The translations under genes were made by a program, and so were the position numbers. Below are positions 13,016 to 34,651 of a stretch of 34,651 nt of DNA, one piece after another (positions within the stretch are counted from its first letter, which is position 1; every line of letters begins with the position of its first letter). The DNA is from Pararhodobacter sp. SW119 (GTDB taxonomy: Bacteria; Pseudomonadota; Alphaproteobacteria; Rhodobacterales; Rhodobacteraceae): assembly GCF_017811755.1 (NCBI RefSeq), contig NZ_JADDJF010000036.1, positions 1 through 34,651 of the forward strand. The letters are read 5' to 3'. A model generated the notes under the pieces. The model was not told where the DNA came from. It saw only the letters and a program-made list of their open reading frames with translations, and did not search any database.

Positions 13016-13042
13016 GGTGTGCAACTTGCACACCCCGGCAAA
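13016..13042. repeat. Palindromic repeat A beside the redox module
   Basis: GGTGTGCAACTTGCACACC (13016-13034) is a 9-bp inverted repeat around a single C, followed by CCGGCAAA. Nearly the same element occurs at 15767-15793. The one internal difference, T to C, is matched by A to G in the opposite arm, so the symmetry is preserved. Confidence 0.7.
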
Positions 13043-13064
13043 ACTGCCGAAATCCGCGCCCGCC

Positions 13065-14150
13065 TCAGGGCCGGCGCAGCCGCCCCATGTCGATCTCGAC
13101 CTGTTCCGACAGGCTCTCCAGGCTGTCATGCAGCAGTTGCAGCAGGTAGGCCGGGTTGTGGACATACCCGCCCGGGTCCTTCTTCGCGACCTGATAGTTG
13201 TAGGCCGCCTGCAGCAGGCGCGGCGTCCAGTTCTGGTAGCGGTTGGGAAAGATCGCATCCTCGGCCGCAATCTCGCCCGCGCCCGCGGGATCGTTGAAGT
13301 AATAGGGGAAACGGCCAGGGAAATAGACGATGGGCGCGCCCGCCACCTCGGCAGCATAGACGCGGATCGCGTCGTAAAGCTGGCCCTGCAGCCCCATGAC
13401 CTCGGCATGGATACCGCCCGCAATGTCGCCGTCGCCGTCGAAGTCAGTATGTCGCGTGCGGATCGCGCGAATGTCCTCGACCCCGCGATGACAGCTCAGG
13501 CAGCCGTCGACCTCGACCTGCGTCGAATGCGGGTCGTGGCAGGCCACGCAGGTATCGGCGCCCGGCACATGCCGGAACCGCCCGGCATAGTCGCGCCCCG
13601 GATACTGGAACCCGCCGCGCACGTCGGACCCGTGCATCACCGCCGCGGCCACGCCGTAATGGATGTTCAGGAACGACAGGTCCCCGGATACCGCGTCGGG
13701 GTCGATCCCCTCGACCGCCTGCAGCACCTGATCGGTCGATTGCCGCCCCTGGTGGCAGACCGAGCAGACCGCGTTCGCGCCCAGACCCGCAACCTCCACG
13801 CCCGAGGGGAAGCTGACCGCGTCCAGCGCATGCGCCGCCGAAGTGTGGCACGAGGCGCAGCCGATGGGCGAGTTGATCGCGCCCGGATGCTCCACCACCC
13901 CCGGCGCGCTGCCATCGGCGCCCAGCCAGGCCACGAAGGACGGCTCGGAATGGCAATGCGCGCAGGCGACCGGCACCTCGCCTTCCTCGTTCCAGTAGGT
14001 GAAGGACAGCGATCCGTAGTCGCCATGCGGCGAGGCCAGCCAGCGCTCGACCAGTTCGGTCAGGCCGGTCAGTTCCTCGGCCAGCGCCGCCGGCGCCGGC
14101 ATCAGACCCAGGGCGAGTGCCAGGGCCAGGCGGAGCTTCGTTCGGAACAT
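13065..14150 (-). CDS. Secreted pentaheme c-type cytochrome
   Basis: This 361-residue protein has an N-terminal signal peptide (hydrophobic residues 6-18, likely cleavage after ALA at 24) and five haem-attachment motifs. These are CAHCH 63-67, CASCH 98-102, CSVCH 129-133, CVACH 201-205 and CLSCH 217-221. Many further histidines could be distal ligands. All haem sites lie in residues 60-221; the last 140 residues have none. An EF-hand-like acidic loop DFDGDGD sits at 236-242, just after the fifth haem. There is no membrane anchor after the signal peptide, so a periplasmic or exported location is inferred. It is divergent from a flavocytochrome reductase gene and shares an FNR-type box with it, which suggests an electron-transfer partnership. 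The electron acceptor is unknown. ATG at 14150 gives the cleanest signal peptide. Confidence 0.88.
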   Translation of the reverse strand: MFRTKLRLALALALGLMPAPAALAEELTGLTELVERWLASPHGDYGSLSFTYWNEEGEVPVACAHCHSEPSFVAWLGADGSAPGVVEHPGAINSPIGCASCHTSAAHALDAVSFPSGVEVAGLGANAVCSVCHQGRQSTDQVLQAVEGIDPDAVSGDLSFLNIHYGVAAAVMHGSDVRGGFQYPGRDYAGRFRHVPGADTCVACHDPHSTQVEVDGCLSCHRGVEDIRAIRTRHTDFDGDGDIAGGIHAEVMGLQGQLYDAIRVYAAEVAGAPIVYFPGRFPYYFNDPAGAGEIAAEDAIFPNRYQNWTPRLLQAAYNYQVAKKDPGGYVHNPAYLLQLLHDSLESLSEQVEIDMGRLRRP

Positions 14151-14221
14151 GGACCTTCTGCCTCCCTCGGTTGCATCCAAGCCGCAGACCCGCATGCTGC
14201 GCGATCTGGACACCTGAAACC

Positions 14222-14235
14222 TTGATCCTGATCAT
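14222..14235. promoter_or_regulatory. FNR/FnrL-type box in the cytochrome-reductase divergent region
   Basis: TTGAT-N4-ATCAT matches 9 of 10 bases of the FNR consensus TTGAT-N4-ATCAA. It lies 72 bp upstream of the pentaheme cytochrome start and 57 bp upstream of the flavocytochrome start, so it is positioned to control both. By analogy with FnrL in Rhodobacter it suggests activation under low oxygen. Confidence 0.6.
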
Positions 14236-14291
14236 GGCGCCGGGTCAGAATGCCGCCAAGCCTGTGCCCAACGCAACAGCAAGAAGTCCCG

Positions 14292-15752
14292 ATGCCGGAA
14301 TCCCCCAAGAAGCCCCCCATGCCCGCAACCCCGCGCCTGCCCGGTCCAGCGCTGGCCGTGATCTACGTCGCCTTCTGCGCGCTGCCGCTGGTGCTGGCCC
14401 TTATGCCGCGCGTCGCCCCACTGGCGGGCTGGGAACGGGCGGGTGCGGCGCTGGGGCTGCTGGGGTTGGCGGCGATCGCGGTGCAGTTCGTGACCTCCGG
14501 CCGGTTCGAGGCTGCCTCGGGCCGGCTGGGCATCGACAAGATCATGGCGTTTCACAAGATCGCCGCCTGGTGGGTGCTGCTGGCGCTGATCCTGCACCCG
14601 CTCCTCTACGTGCTGCCCACCTGGCTGGACGATCCCGCGCGCGGCCAGGCGCGGCTGACCGCGTACCTGACGCTGCCGCATTACCGCAGCGGCGTCGTCG
14701 CGCTGGCGGCGCTGGCGCTTCTGGTCCTGACGTCGGCGCTGCGCGAACGGCTGCCGGTCCGCTACGAGGTTTGGCGCGCCAGTCACATCGTCTTTGGCGT
14801 CACCGCCGCCGCGGCCGGGCTGCACCATGCGCTGACGACGGGGCGGTTCAGCGCGCTGGGGCCGGTGCCGGCGCTCTGGTGGGCGGTCGGCGCGGCGCTG
14901 CTGGCGGTGGTTGGCACGCTCTACGGCTGGCGCTGGTGGCGGCTGCACGCGCGCCCCTGGCGGCTGAAATCGGTCGAAAAGCTGGCGGACCGGATGTGGG
15001 AGCTGGACATCCAGCCGCAGGCGAAGACACCGCAACTGCCCTACCACGCCGGCCAGTTCGTCTGGATGACCGAGGGCGAGCGGCGCTTCCCGCTGTTCGA
15101 TCACCCGTTTTCCATCGCCGATTCGCCGCGCCGGCCGGGGTTGAGCCTGATCATCAAGGAAGCCGGCGACTTCACCGACCGGATCGGCGCACTGCCCCCC
15201 GGCACGCCCATCGGCATCGACGGCCCCTATGGCGAATTCGCGCTGGAGGATCATCCCTGCGACGCGGTCCTGCTGATCGCCGGCGGGGTGGGGATCGCGC
15301 CGATCATAGGGCTCGTGCGCGACATGGTCGCGCGCGGCGAGCGACGGCCGGTGCGGCTTGCCTATGCCGCCGGGCAACCCGAGAACTTCGCCTGCCTGCC
15401 CGAGATCGCCGCCGCCGAGGCGCAGCTTGACCTGAAGGTGATGCTGCTGAGCGAGGAGGACGGCGCGGACTGGACGGGCGAGGTCGGGCGGCTGGATCAC
15501 GACCGGCTGCGGCGGCTGCTGGAGGGACTCGATCCGGCGCGGACGGTGGCGTTGATGTGCGGCCCCGGCGGAATGGTGACGGCGGTGTCGGACGCGCTGC
15601 TGGACGTGGGCCTGCCGATGTCGAACGTCATCTACGAACGCTTCGACTACGCCGGCGGCGCGGCCTCGCGCCAGGACCGGCGGCGCAGCTTGGCCTTTGC
15701 CGGCATCGGCGCCGGGCTGGCCTTAGTGGCCGGGCTTTTCGCGCTGACCTGA
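14292..15752 (+). CDS. Ferric-reductase-like flavocytochrome (FRD transmembrane plus FAD/NAD domains)
   Basis: This 486-residue inner-membrane protein has six predicted helices in residues 20-217. They carry two His pairs spaced like bis-haem ligands: His88/His102 and His165/His178. A ferredoxin-reductase-type module follows, with the FAD segment FPLFDHPFSIAD at 266-277, the glycine-rich GIDGPYGEFAL near 308-318, the NAD-binding start LLIAGGVGIAPI at 327-338 and MCGPGGM at 422-428. This is the architecture of ferric reductases and NADPH-oxidase relatives, which move electrons from cytosolic NAD(P)H across the membrane. An extra hydrophobic helix at 468-485 ends the protein, which is unusual. 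ATG at 14292 is chosen; a start 14 codons upstream lacks support. The partner is probably the divergent pentaheme cytochrome. Confidence 0.88.
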   Translation: MPESPKKPPMPATPRLPGPALAVIYVAFCALPLVLALMPRVAPLAGWERAGAALGLLGLAAIAVQFVTSGRFEAASGRLGIDKIMAFHKIAAWWVLLALILHPLLYVLPTWLDDPARGQARLTAYLTLPHYRSGVVALAALALLVLTSALRERLPVRYEVWRASHIVFGVTAAAAGLHHALTTGRFSALGPVPALWWAVGAALLAVVGTLYGWRWWRLHARPWRLKSVEKLADRMWELDIQPQAKTPQLPYHAGQFVWMTEGERRFPLFDHPFSIADSPRRPGLSLIIKEAGDFTDRIGALPPGTPIGIDGPYGEFALEDHPCDAVLLIAGGVGIAPIIGLVRDMVARGERRPVRLAYAAGQPENFACLPEIAAAEAQLDLKVMLLSEEDGADWTGEVGRLDHDRLRRLLEGLDPARTVALMCGPGGMVTAVSDALLDVGLPMSNVIYERFDYAGGAASRQDRRRSLAFAGIGAGLALVAGLFALT

Positions 15753-15766
15753 GCCCGGCGCGGCCG

Positions 15767-15793
15767 GTGCGCAAATTTGCGCACTCCGGCAAA
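15767..15793. repeat. Palindromic repeat B beside the redox module
   Basis: GTGCGCAAATTTGCGCAC (15767-15784) is a perfect 18-bp palindrome followed by TCCGGCAAA. It differs from repeat A at 13017-13042 by a compensated pair inside the arms, by the centre, and by one flanking base. It begins 15 bp after the flavocytochrome stop codon. Confidence 0.7.
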
Positions 15794-31380: not shown

Positions 31381-32301
31381 TCATCCATTCCAGCGCACTT
31401 TTCCATGATCGGCGAGGTCGTAGCCTCCCAAGTGAAGGGCGCGTCTGGCGAAGGCCTCGCTTCGGGCGAAAGCCAGGAGAGACTGGATCGGCGGCTCGAA
31501 ATAGTCGCGCCGCGTCATCGCCAGATCGAAGCTTTCGTCTGCAAGCAGCGGTAGAAAGCCCATCAGCCCTGCCGCCGCCTTCAGGCCCAGTCCGCAATCG
31601 GCCTCGCCCGTCTCGATCAGTGCGGCCAGGTCGGCATGGGTTTCGGCGGGGCGGTCGACCGTCGTCAGGTCGGCTGCGCTCAGTCCCTCGCGCGCAAGCA
31701 GAACGTCGAGCAGGCGCTGCGATCCGGCCCCCTCGGCGCGCGTCGCGAAACGCATGCCGCGTGTCACGGCATCCCTGAGTCCGGAGATCGCGTGAGGGTT
31801 GCCCGGTGCAAGGATCAAGCCTTGCGTGCGCCGCGCCCAATGGATCAGTACGCAACTTATGCCCGGCAAATGCGCCTGCGCCGCGGCGACGTTCCAGCCT
31901 CCGCCCTCGGGGTCGAGCAGGTGAACGCCCGACATCAGCGCACGGCCCGCCGCCAGGTCCTCCAGTCCTTGGGTCGAGCCGCGTGCCAGCACGGCCAGAC
32001 CGCTGCCGGATTGACGCAGCGCCCATTCCAGAAGCGGATCGTTCGAGCCCGAATAGATCGGCGGCGCAGGCGTGAGGCCCACCTCCGGAACCTCGGTCTG
32101 CGCCTCGAGCCAGGCATCGATCAGCCGGCGGGGGAAGAGCAGCTTTCCGGTGGCGCGGCTGAAAGGGATCGTCTGGCGCGCGACCATCTCGTAGATCGTC
32201 CGCTCCTTGACCCTCAGATAGTCGGCCACCTCACTGGTTGTCATGAGCGGCGACGTACGGCGCGCACTTTCCGGTGAGCCTTCGATGCGCGTTTCCTGCA
32301 T
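31381..32301 (-). CDS. HTH regulator fused to a PBP-like ligand domain, likely tungstate/molybdate sensor
   Basis: This 306-residue protein has an excisionase/MerR-like helix-turn-helix at about 20-68 (MTTSEVADYLRVKERTIYEMVARQTIPFSRATGKLLFPRRLIDAWL). A periplasmic-binding-protein-like domain (PBP_like class, as in some MoeA relatives) covers about 85-295. It has no signal peptide, so it acts in the cytoplasm. It is divergent from a Tup-type transporter operon across 86 bp, which strongly suggests that it senses the transported oxyanion and controls that operon. The ligand is inferred, not shown. ATG at 32301 is the first codon; TSS prediction places it almost leaderless. Confidence 0.88.
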   Translation of the reverse strand: MQETRIEGSPESARRTSPLMTTSEVADYLRVKERTIYEMVARQTIPFSRATGKLLFPRRLIDAWLEAQTEVPEVGLTPAPPIYSGSNDPLLEWALRQSGSGLAVLARGSTQGLEDLAAGRALMSGVHLLDPEGGGWNVAAAQAHLPGISCVLIHWARRTQGLILAPGNPHAISGLRDAVTRGMRFATRAEGAGSQRLLDVLLAREGLSAADLTTVDRPAETHADLAALIETGEADCGLGLKAAAGLMGFLPLLADESFDLAMTRRDYFEPPIQSLLAFARSEAFARRALHLGGYDLADHGKVRWNG

Positions 32302-32317
32302 TACACCACAGTATCCT

Positions 32318-32355
32318 GCAAAATTTACATGTTTGAAACCTAGCGCAATTTTTGC
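32318..32355. promoter_or_regulatory. Candidate operator: split inverted repeat in the Tup divergent region
   Basis: GCAAAATT (32318-32325) and AATTTTTGC (32347-32355) form an imperfect inverted repeat with centres about 30 bp apart, roughly three helical turns. It lies among promoter-like sequences of both the regulator and the transporter, in an A+T-rich patch unlike the rest of the window. Confidence 0.4.
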
Positions 32356-32361
32356 TTTGAT
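32333..32361 (+). promoter_or_regulatory. Possible promoter of the Tup transporter operon
   Basis: TTGAAA (32333-32338) and TTTGAT (32356-32361) are separated by 17 bp. A second possible promoter reads the other way for the regulator: TTTCAA-N17-GATACT on the minus strand. The two overlap, as expected for joint control. Confidence 0.35.
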
Positions 32362-32387
32362 TCTACCAGATTGTGAAGGGATTCTCG

Positions 32388-33083
32388 GTGGACGGACCGT
32401 TTGGAATCGCGCTCCAGCTGATCGCTTCAGGCGATGCGGCGCTGATGCAGATCATCGCGCTTTCGCTACGCGTGTCGCTGACCGCGGTGCTCATCGCCTG
32501 CGTGCTTGGCCTGCCCATGGGCGCGGGGCTGGCGCTGGCGAGGTTTCCGGGACGCGGCGCGGTGATCGTGGTGTTCAACGCGCTGATGGGCCTGCCGCCG
32601 GTGGTCGCCGGCCTTCTCGTCTATCTGATGCTCTCGCGCTCGGGGCCGTTCGGAGCTCTGGCCTTGCTGTTCACCCCAACCGCCATGGTCATCGCCCAGA
32701 CCGTGCTGATCCTTCCCATCGTAGTCTCGCTGACCCGCTCGGTGGTCGAGGATCTCTGGGCAGAGTACCGGGAGCAGTTGCGATCCCTCGGCGCCGGGCG
32801 CTTGCGCGCCGTGCCGACGCTTCTGTGGGACGGCCGCGTGTCGCTTCTCACGGGCGTATTGGCGGGCTTCGGCCGCGCGAGCGCCGAGGTCGGCGCGGTG
32901 CTGATCGTCGGCGGCAACATTGCCGGGCACACGCGCACCATGACGACCGCCATCACCCTTGAGACGGCGCGCGGCAACCTCGGTCTGGCGGTGGCGCTGG
33001 GGATCATTCTGATGACGCTCACTCTTGCACTCAACGCGGCTGCCTGGGGCGCCGGGCAATGGGCGCGGGGGCGGCTGGGATGA
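32388..33083 (+). CDS. tupB: Tungstate-type ABC transporter permease
   Basis: This 231-residue inner-membrane permease has about five to six helices. The segment near the N-terminus (MQIIALSLRVSLTAVLIACVLGLPMGAGLALARFPGRG) and the cytoplasmic EAA-type loop (YREQLRSLGAGRLRAVPTLLWDGRVSLLTGVLAGFGRASAEVGAVLIVGGNI) fit the TupB/WtpB group of oxyanion permeases. GTG at 32388 is preferred because GAAGGGA stands 6 nt upstream; an in-frame GTG at 32373 has no such signal. It is the first gene of a permease-ATPase-binding-protein operon, with its stop overlapping the next start (ATGA). Confidence 0.88.
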   Translation: MDGPFGIALQLIASGDAALMQIIALSLRVSLTAVLIACVLGLPMGAGLALARFPGRGAVIVVFNALMGLPPVVAGLLVYLMLSRSGPFGALALLFTPTAMVIAQTVLILPIVVSLTRSVVEDLWAEYREQLRSLGAGRLRAVPTLLWDGRVSLLTGVLAGFGRASAEVGAVLIVGGNIAGHTRTMTTAITLETARGNLGLAVALGIILMTLTLALNAAAWGAGQWARGRLG

Positions 33084-33823
33084 GGGCCGAGTTGATCTCG
33101 GCGCGTGATATCGCCACCGCGATCCTGCCCTTACGGCTGGAGCACGCAGGCGTGGCCGTCGACGGCAAGCCGCTGCTGGCCGACCTGACGCTCGGCATCG
33201 AGCCTGGTCGCCGGCTGATCGTTATGGGCGCGAACGGTGCCGGCAAGAGCCTGTTCCTGCGCCTCTGCCACGGGCTGATCGAGCCCACTTCCGGCCGCCG
33301 GATCTGGGCTGACGGAACTTTGCGGCCCGATGCACAGGCAATGGTCTTCCAGCGTCCGGTGCTGCTGCGGCGTTCGGTTTCGGCCAACATCGACTACCCG
33401 TTGAAGCTGCGCGGCCTGGCGCGGGCGGAGCGCCACGCCATCGTTGCCCGCACGCTCGACCGGTTCGGGCTGAGCCCGCTTGCCGACCGTCCCGCCCGGC
33501 TGCTGTCCGGAGGCGAGCAGCAGCGACTGGCGCTGGCGCGCGCCTGGGCGATGCGCCCCGAAGTGCTGTTTCTCGACGAACCCACTTCGGCGCTCGACCC
33601 CTCGGCCACGCGGATCATCGAGGAGATGATCGAAATCTTCGCGGCGGATGGCATCACGATCGTCATGACCACGCACAGCATTGGCCAGGCCAGACGGCTG
33701 GCCGAGGATGTGGCCTTCCTGAACCGAGGGCGGCTGATCGAACATGGCCCCGCCGCGCCCTTCTTCGCAGGACCCCAAACGCCCGAGGCCCGCGCCTTCC
33801 TTGCGGGCGATCTGATCTGGTAA
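33080..33823 (+). CDS. tupC: Tungstate-type ABC transporter ATP-binding protein
   Basis: This 247-residue ATPase would power oxyanion import. Walker A is GANGAGKS at about residues 50-57, the signature is LLSGGEQQRLALARA, and Walker B is VLFLDEPTSALD. The H-loop is MTTHS. It lacks the extra regulatory C-terminal domain of ModC, which favours the TupC subgroup. ATG at 33080 overlaps the permease stop by 4 bp. The substrate-binding protein gene follows after 16 bp. Confidence 0.92.
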   Translation: MRAELISARDIATAILPLRLEHAGVAVDGKPLLADLTLGIEPGRRLIVMGANGAGKSLFLRLCHGLIEPTSGRRIWADGTLRPDAQAMVFQRPVLLRRSVSANIDYPLKLRGLARAERHAIVARTLDRFGLSPLADRPARLLSGGEQQRLALARAWAMRPEVLFLDEPTSALDPSATRIIEEMIEIFAADGITIVMTTHSIGQARRLAEDVAFLNRGRLIEHGPAAPFFAGPQTPEARAFLAGDLIW

Positions 33824-33839
33824 CTGACGGGAGAAAGAC

Positions 33840-34651
33840 ATGATCCACCTACGCTACCACCTTATTGGCCTCGTCTCGGGCGTCGCTATCGTGACCGCGC
33901 TGCCCGCCGCCGCGCAGGACTTCATAATCGTTGCCTCAACGACCTCGACCGAGCAATCGGGCCTCTTCGGCTATATCCTGCCGATGTTCGAGGACGAGAC
34001 CGGGATCGAGGTTCGCGTCGTCGCGCAGGGCACCGGTCAGGCGCTGGAAACCGGCCGGCGTGGCGATGCCGATGTCGTCTTCGTCCACGCCCGCGAACTG
34101 GAGGAGCAGTTCGTCGCCAACGGCTACGGGGTCGAGCGCTTCAGCGTGATGTACAACGATTTCGTCCTTGTCGGACCAGGCGATGACCCCGCCGGGATCG
34201 CAGACGCTGGTTGTGCCGCCGGTGCAATGGCGGCGATCGCCGGGGCCGAGGCGCCCTTCGCCTCGCGCGGGGACCACTCCGGCACGCATGTCGCCGAGCG
34301 CAACCTGTGGTCGGCCGCTGGGGTCGACCCTGCGGGCGGCTGGTACCGCGAGACCGGTTCGGGCATGGGGCCGACGTTGAACACGGCAAGCCAGATGAAC
34401 GCCTATGCGCTGACCGACCGCGGCACCTGGCTCAGCTTCGAGAACCGCGGGGAACTTGAGATCCTGTTTGAAGGCGACGAGGTGCTCTTCAACCCCTACG
34501 GCGTGATCCTCGTGAACCCCGAGCGACACCGCCATGTGAGGGCCGAGCAGGGCCAGTCCTTCATCGACTGGCTCACCTCGGGCGTGGGCCAAGAGGCCAT
34601 CGCCAGCTACACCCTCGACGGCAAGCAGCTCTTCTTTCCGAGCGCCGACTG
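33840..34651 (+). CDS. tupA: Tungstate-binding periplasmic protein TupA (reaches window end)
   Basis: This is the high-affinity substrate-binding protein of the Tup importer. The visible 270 codons begin with a signal peptide ending in ALPAAAQ. VASTTSTEQSGLFGYILPMFEDETGIEVRVVAQGTGQALETGRRGDADVVFVH contains the oxyanion-contacting TTST motif. APFASRGDHSGTHVAERNLW is the second anion-binding loop typical of TupA, and TLNTASQMNAYALTDRGTW the third. These favour tungstate (TupA) over ModA or WtpA. The last two bases are TG after PSAD, so a TGA stop may fall immediately outside the window. ATG at 33840 follows GGGAGAAAG. Confidence 0.93.
   Translation, partial: MIHLRYHLIGLVSGVAIVTALPAAAQDFIIVASTTSTEQSGLFGYILPMFEDETGIEVRVVAQGTGQALETGRRGDADVVFVHARELEEQFVANGYGVERFSVMYNDFVLVGPGDDPAGIADAGCAAGAMAAIAGAEAPFASRGDHSGTHVAERNLWSAAGVDPAGGWYRETGSGMGPTLNTASQMNAYALTDRGTWLSFENRGELEILFEGDEVLFNPYGVILVNPERHRHVRAEQGQSFIDWLTSGVGQEAIASYTLDGKQLFFPSAD

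Follow-up and report, generated by a model that had tools for sequence, protein, structure and literature searches.

A conserved divergent pair of a ferric-reductase-type flavocytochrome and a pentahaem cytochrome in Pararhodobacter sp. SW119, with an NQR-type operon as partner in relatives

In a stretch of 34,651 bases from Pararhodobacter sp. SW119 (the window, which is one complete contig, C123, of a 4.51 Mb genome), the gene of a pentahaem c-type cytochrome of 361 amino acids (aa; positions 13065..14150, reverse strand) and that of a ferric-reductase-type flavocytochrome of 486 aa, named FRD throughout (14292..15752, forward strand), diverge from an intergenic gap of 141 bp (14151-14291). 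The two form a compact two-gene unit that is strongly conserved. In other relatives the cytochrome stands beside an operon for a modified Na+-NQR. Our leading reading, which we hold to be close to evenly balanced between right and wrong, is that electrons of NADH are exported without quinone via FRD to an NrfA-like cytochrome, most likely a terminal reductase, with NQR acting as the feeder in relatives.

The FRD-cytochrome unit and its promoter

The preliminary description of this locus reported a secreted protein with five CXXCH motifs beside a membrane protein with haem, FAD and NAD parts, and the open reading frames (ORFs) and their Pfam matches agree with it. The cytochrome contains exactly five such motifs behind an N-terminus (about residues 1-24) that by eye resembles a Sec-type signal peptide, and is matched by Cytochrome_C7 (E=3.3e-9). 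FRD, for which an alternative start at 14250 is possible, is matched by Ferric_reduct (4.1e-15) over its membrane domain (residues 54-174; 14451..14813, forward strand), by FAD_binding_8 (3.3e-7) and by NAD_binding_1 (7.5e-16). Four histidines (H88, H102, H165 and H179, the last just beyond the domain edge) were invariant in 45 aligned FRDs and are the candidate ligands of two predicted bis-His haems b; together with the FAD and NAD(P) domains they give FRD the make-up of a ferric-reductase/NOX-type protein. A C-terminal hydrophobic helix (about residues 465-486; 15684..15749, forward strand) was present in all 62 distinct complete cytochrome-linked FRDs and in a copy of 45% identity. Among paralogues of at most 38% identity, 12 of 27 of which were examined, nine stop at ERFxYD without this tail and three were unclear, and the FRD paralogue of the window's own genome (L003) lacks the helix. 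The closest solved chains over the membrane and FAD parts were 8qt6, a bacterial NADPH oxidase, and its kin (residues 58-370, E=3.8e-12), and a dual oxidase matched the flavin part (E=7.8e-7). These matches would suit a NOX-like activity in which FRD would make superoxide from O2, to be scavenged, itself or as its products, by the cytochrome; however, the locus bears an FNR-type box, and a conserved multihaem partner should compete with O2, and we regard this activity as highly improbable.

Cytochrome homologues were sought in 394 same-family genomes, nearly all of different genera (cut-off E<=1e-10), and were found in 66 of them (70 match rows, equal to 68 loci). The neighbourhoods of all 67 loci outside the window were taken, some shortened by contig ends, and partners were identified by tblastn. 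FRD accompanied the cytochrome at 17 of the 68 loci, the window included, always divergently (the FRD copy of L085 is broken), and an nqrABCDEF-apbE-CBS operon, whole or in its visible part, did so at 45 (42 divergent, three on the same strand). Neither partner was found at six. FRD itself was matched in 45 of the 394 genomes at E<=1e-60. The 17 FRDs of at least 62% identity were all divergent to a cytochrome and were exactly the cytochrome-adjacent set; of the other 28 matches, one had 45% identity and 27 had at most 38%. In the genome with the 45% copy (G199), cytochrome and FRD lie on different contigs (L235:6116-7564 and L053), which suggests an unlinked or older FRD-cytochrome pair.

One peptide pattern, scanned against 84,980 species genomes, found 462 cytochrome relatives, and the best 80 of these were examined. 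FRD was divergent to the cytochrome in 61 of these 80 and the NQR operon in 15, neither was present in one (L183), and no partner was seen in the remaining three, which lie near contig ends with only about 2, 5 and 552 upstream bases available. The hosts of the 61 FRD pairs were Paracoccaceae (39), Roseobacteraceae (6), Phyllobacteriaceae (6), Rhizobiaceae (5), Halomonadaceae (2), Notoacmeibacteraceae (1), Salinarimonadaceae (1) and an unplaced gammaproteobacterium (1). Among the best 80, the closest named relatives at the locus were two Rhodobacteraceae metagenome genomes of the CSSed series, with cytochromes 85-86% identical. Five matches lay on plasmids, four of the NQR form and one with neither partner, and a draw of 398 genomes across the phylum gave only seven cytochrome matches, all in the same family and including the window's own genome. 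The genome collections overlap, and the counts of the family survey and of the best 80 are not additive. Both surveys bear out the adjacency that the preliminary description had put forward.

The intergenic gap contains the FNR/CRP-type box TTGATCCTGATCAT (14222..14235), one mismatch from TTGAT-N4-ATCAA, a pattern that we take to be a site of the FNR/CRP family. At up to one mismatch, it was found in 38 of 67 distinct FRD/cytochrome gaps and 30 of 58 distinct NQR/cytochrome gaps, measured between alignment ends rather than start codons. Before deduplication the counts were 46/78 and 32/61, compared with 0.06 and 0.28 expected from shuffles. The signal was specific to its spacer, as spacers other than 4 gave 0 or 1 and four permuted palindromes gave 0. 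Divergence over 141 bp with an FNR-type box, as first described, is what the gap shows, and about half of the gaps in relatives carry the box as well.

No third gene recurred within 4 kb at more than 8 of 44 FRD-type loci, all of which extend for 3 kb or more to either side. This bears on two readings that leave the pair intact and change its purpose. Assimilatory reduction of ferric iron or metal chelates in the periplasm, a classic ferric-reductase-like role, would account for the Ferric_reduct domain of FRD, but the pair has no fixed neighbouring gene family, reading the window ORFs by eye revealed no iron-uptake gene (no search was aimed at them), and the alternative feeder NQR is no iron-uptake enzyme; we consider this role quite improbable. 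Much the same holds for reverse flow, in which the cytochrome would oxidise a periplasmic donor of the hydroxylamine or sulfur type, as in HAO relatives, and pass electrons inward to NAD+. Oxidases exist among members of the NrfA superfamily, and two hosts among the best 80 of 462 (L156 and L164) are named thiooxidans. Yet a fixed neighbouring family is again missing, FNR-type boxes fit low-oxygen reduction, and uncoupled reduction of NAD+ through a flavocytochrome would be energetically poor, making inward flow similarly improbable.

The NQR-type operon and the change of partner

At the NQR loci (among L035-L038, L055-L064, L066, L070-L072, L074-L084, L086-L104 and L180-L197), the order nqrABCDEF with apbE was observed beside the cytochrome, A to F being seen in most of them and some being cut by contig ends. 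NqrB was unmatched in L071, and NqrA, NqrB and NqrC were confirmed by family models in two loci. By NqrA identity, two subtypes of the cytochrome-linked operon can be told apart. Gene order, apbE and the NqrC FMN motif, which was kept in 60 of 63 cases (L104 is cut, L105 broken and L196 unexplained), are shared with Na+-NQR.

In contrast, NqrB has lost both its FMN site and a conserved glycine of its quinone site. When the last 300 residues of 62 NqrB rows were aligned (59 after removal of repeats), the 48-residue segment with the FMN threonine (SGAT; Thr236) was absent from 59/59 and the quinone-site Gly140 was kept in 0/59. Gly141 was kept in 1/27 of one type and 19/32 of the other. Two rows have a TGAT or TGAS string away from the FMN site, and a pairing of the NqrB FMN motif with a DPVTSAST stretch was overturned by alignment with a longer reference, the two being unrelated. 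The cytochrome-linked NqrB often has a shorter frame, its longest open frame being 256-283 aa in 42/62 loci compared with 415 aa in V. cholerae; the frame is longer in the remaining 20, where the start is tentative. According to the respective studies, mutation of the two NqrB glycines fully disrupts the interaction with ubiquinone (PMC4014512), and electrons pass through NQR from NADH via FAD, 2Fe-2S, FMN of NqrC, FMN of NqrB and riboflavin to quinone (PMC9325719). With the FMN of NqrB gone, the periplasmic FMN of NqrC would be the natural exit, from which electrons of the NQR version should pass to the same cytochrome.

A tree of 134 cytochromes (66 FRD, 57 NQR and 11 with neither partner) was built by a quick method, after L085, L098, L104, L105 and L089 had been dropped as broken, cut or read through and 14 of 148 rows removed for an identical core. 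A single FRD/NQR partner switch is needed on this tree when the rows with neither partner are left uncounted, and nine changes in all when they are included. The FRD clade (66 FRD and three with neither) had an SH-aLRT of 97, and its nesting among NQR forms at the root, which is only a midpoint root, suggests that NQR was the older partner. Distances among FRDs and among cytochromes were correlated (rho 0.63, n=62; 0/1000 permutations as high), and two Halomonadaceae pairs had the same two nearest neighbours for FRD and for the cytochrome.

Other arrangements were seen at single loci. On a Defluviimonas plasmid (L034:5688-16985), the cytochrome lies between two two-component systems, with PepSY/cytochrome b genes, DUF2271, a PepSY-flavodoxin-reductase protein and apbE downstream, possibly a third kind of electron feeder. 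An orphan cytochrome at L073:4863-8510 adjoins a protein of the octahaem tetrathionate-reductase family, in whose ORF nine CXXCH were counted, and a cytochrome b561; kinship of our cytochrome to this octahaem protein was rejected, as profile comparison yielded a local haem-motif match only. Broken loci were found in both forms: the NQR-type L105 (G013) and L236 (G742) have a split cytochrome and interruptions in several subunits, and in the FRD-type L085 (G344) FRD and cytochrome are both interrupted.

The cytochrome and the proposed electron route

The five haem motifs, all on the reverse strand, are CAHCH (haem 1; residues 63-67, 13950..13964), which aligns to the CXXCK haem of NrfA, CASCH (haem 2; 98-102, 13845..13859), CSVCH (haem 3; 129-133, 13752..13766), CVACH (haem 4; 201-205, 13536..13550) and CLSCH (haem 5; 217-221, 13488..13502). 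Ten histidines are invariant in the family, L085, L098, L104 and L105 being excluded from this count. The motif histidine of haem 1, H67, was kept in 134/134 cytochromes in place of the CXXCK lysine, and the residue at His+3 of haem 3, where E. coli NrfA has Tyr216, was Arg (Arg136) in 134/134. No Arg column exceeded 26/134 between H42 and C63, and hence no conserved counterpart to the NrfA Arg was found there. From the second-sphere set of NrfA, a His is present while Tyr and Arg are not kept. H164 lies within an [NQ]-x-H motif, presumably at the position of the non-ligating catalytic His of NrfA.

NrfA-type proteins and OcwA were the best solved matches of the cytochrome, weakly, both in the VIA-align rows (59 chains) and in sequence profiles, with 3ubr matched at E=2.5e-5 in weak pieces partly out of register. 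Like NrfA, the cytochrome has five haems, a signal peptide and, in its model, C-terminal helices. Its motifs and distal histidines can tentatively be matched one to one in order to those of E. coli NrfA. The cytochrome is likely a member of the NrfA/OcwA superfamily, and a more specific NrfA-like core finds support that is weak.

In the proposed route, FRD would oxidise cytosolic NADH at its FAD/NAD domains, electrons would cross the inner membrane through the two bis-His haems b of FRD and emerge on the periplasmic side, and the cytochrome would accept them there directly, with neither quinone nor a NapC/NrfH-type protein in between. Haems 2-5 are predicted to be bis-His, with H42, H194, H208 and H331 as distal ligands. 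The coordination of haem 1 is deduced from sequence order; this haem would most likely be five-coordinate, its distal pocket being formed with H164 and R136. An NrfA-like core with such a haem would make the cytochrome most likely a terminal reductase for a small periplasmic substrate and not merely a wire. An FNR/CRP-family regulator may control both the FRD and the NQR versions, at least in the box-bearing half of the loci. We infer NADH as the donor, the direction of flow, the direct contact, the open haem 1 and the reductase function. That these proteins would constitute a new quinone-independent class, namely NADH-driven periplasmic reductases of the NrfA fold in which haem 1 is open and ligated by His and whose feeder is FRD or an NQR without its quinone branch (a NADH:cytochrome c oxidoreductase, perhaps sodium-pumping), is a larger claim that we put forward only as a possibility, with doubts outweighing confidence.

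Several observations weigh against this reading. In the match to 3ubr, the piece with the highest score lies out of register (profile 95-179 on 239-326), and small multihaem cytochromes follow next after 3ubr (E 7e-4 to 3e-3). With hhalign, the cytochrome reached 25% against E. coli NrfA for the whole set and 57% for A1 with a C-terminal piece, compared with 30% against NrfB, and general multihaem Pfam models matched 27/27 cytochrome members. Foldseek gave no match to the cytochrome model at E<=0.001, and structural kinship thus rests on the VIA-align rows and the weak sequence evidence. The NrfA histidines used in the matching were a choice of five among its non-motif ones, the Lys and Tyr of NrfA are replaced and its Arg is without a conserved counterpart, and H164 could itself ligate haem 1. 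Away from contig edges, the cytochrome is partnerless at 6/68 family loci and 1/80 named loci, and the box is missing at one mismatch in 29/67 FRD gaps and 28/58 NQR gaps. Denitrification genes were compared in 40 of 66 genomes with the cytochrome and 40 of 328 without it, by matches over the cut-off and uncorrected for kinship: NosZ was present in 12/40 versus 15/40, NapA in 4/40 versus 9/40 and NirK in 7/40 versus 2/40.

A link of the cytochrome to denitrification was rejected, NosZ, NirK and NapA being without clear association and none of them over the cut-off in the window's own genome; the substrate is therefore not simply one of the usual denitrification set. The same genome gave no match to the NapC/NirT family (PF03264), in line with the original proposal of a route without the usual CymA/NapC-type quinol dehydrogenase, and none to the MtrB/PioB porin (PF11854), which speaks against an outer-membrane conduit of the MtrCAB/PioAB type. 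Together these negatives make a periplasmic end point likelier than an extracellular one. Of the NAD(P)H route to a periplasmic or extracellular acceptor that had been suggested earlier, the conserved unit is supported, and the extracellular end finds no support in the window's own genome.

The same electron route could also end in a cytochrome that is only a carrier to periplasmic enzymes or soluble acceptors, with all five haems bis-His and H164 on haem 1. Ten invariant histidines suffice for this, the active-site Tyr and Arg of NrfA are not conserved, and orphan cytochromes occur near other redox genes, such as the octahaem-family protein and cytochrome b561 at L073. However, H164 and its [NQ]-x-H motif fall where NrfA has its non-ligating catalytic His, and the pair has no further fixed neighbour, though an acceptor could be encoded elsewhere. 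The matching haem of OcwA is moreover open (PMC6703420). We hold a pure carrier to be rather unlikely and retain the terminal reductase as the preferred function.

Surroundings, related systems and significance

Outside the pair, the preliminary description noted two near-identical flanking palindromes, GTGTGCAACTTGCACAC (13017..13033) and GTGCGCAAATTTGCGCAC (15767..15784). They are present, both between convergent ORFs, but they are similar only, and exact copies of their pattern (GTGYGCAA-N1-2-TTGCRCAC) occur at 12 places in this genome of 4.51 Mb (L106-L117 examined; reversed control 0). The palindrome is therefore no marker of the module, which rules out the two copies as its borders and leaves a dispersed genomic element outside the mechanism. 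Several genomic copies lie near gene 3' ends with a similar CAAG-N-CATTGA-like flank. From ORF reading, we take the flanks of the pair to be an amidohydrolase gene on one side and purN/purM on the other, which look unrelated. At 31381-34649, ORFs presumably encode an excisionase-type/ModE-like regulator and a tungstate-type ABC transporter.

Among described systems, NrfA is one of the closest to the cytochrome. The cytochrome differs from it in the CXXCH of haem 1, the Arg in place of Tyr, the absence of a conserved Arg and its length (361 versus 478 aa), and its partner is an NADH flavoenzyme, FRD or NQR, rather than an NrfH/NapC or NrfBCD quinol dehydrogenase. In the accessible text on NrfA (PMC12285233), Crp-FNR-type control is described, comparable to the box at the cytochrome loci, and NrfAs with CXXCH are known, all using NrfH. 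OcwA of Thermincola has nine haems and is located at a Gram-positive cell surface, and its description, in the part available, includes no FRD or NQR partner (PMC6703420); the present cytochrome, with five haems in 361 aa, is without its c554-like four-haem part.

The Rnf and MmcA pair of Methanosarcina acetivorans differs from the present systems in being archaeal, ferredoxin-driven and heptahaem, with an FMN on RnfD, and we know of no FRD version of it. It is nevertheless the nearest described idea, as a complex of the Rnf/Nqr family is expected there to feed a multihaem cytochrome in a methanogen, according to the accessible portion of the source (PMC12174285). Nqr/Rnf-like, PepSY, MsrQ and DUF4405 systems likewise carry NAD(P)H electrons to extracytosolic acceptors, and an NqrB/RnfD-like subunit without the conserved Thr has already been described; as available, these accounts describe that subunit in partial complexes, as a fusion with an NAD-binding domain, and mention no pentahaem cytochrome as partner (PMC11334425, PMC8238504). 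A pairing of FRD or NQR with the cytochrome was not found in the literature searched, which was mainly open-access and, in the portions available, excluded bioRxiv preprints. Extracytosolic electron transfer by NADH flavoenzymes is known; what is unusual is the rewired NQR and a feeder that can be exchanged. The likeness to NrfA and OcwA, the cytochrome shared with a modified Na+-NQR operon and the extra C-terminal helix of FRD go beyond the preliminary description.

If the proposed route is true, NADH would drive a periplasmic multihaem protein directly, bypassing the quinone pool, and FRD with its cytochrome would be a compact two-gene wire from NADH to the periplasm. NQR would have been rewired to the cytochrome by losing its quinone branch, which would offer a natural way to find out which of its halves pumps sodium. 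The same reading would predict, in many alphaproteobacteria, a reductase or electron-carrier activity that has yet to be assigned.

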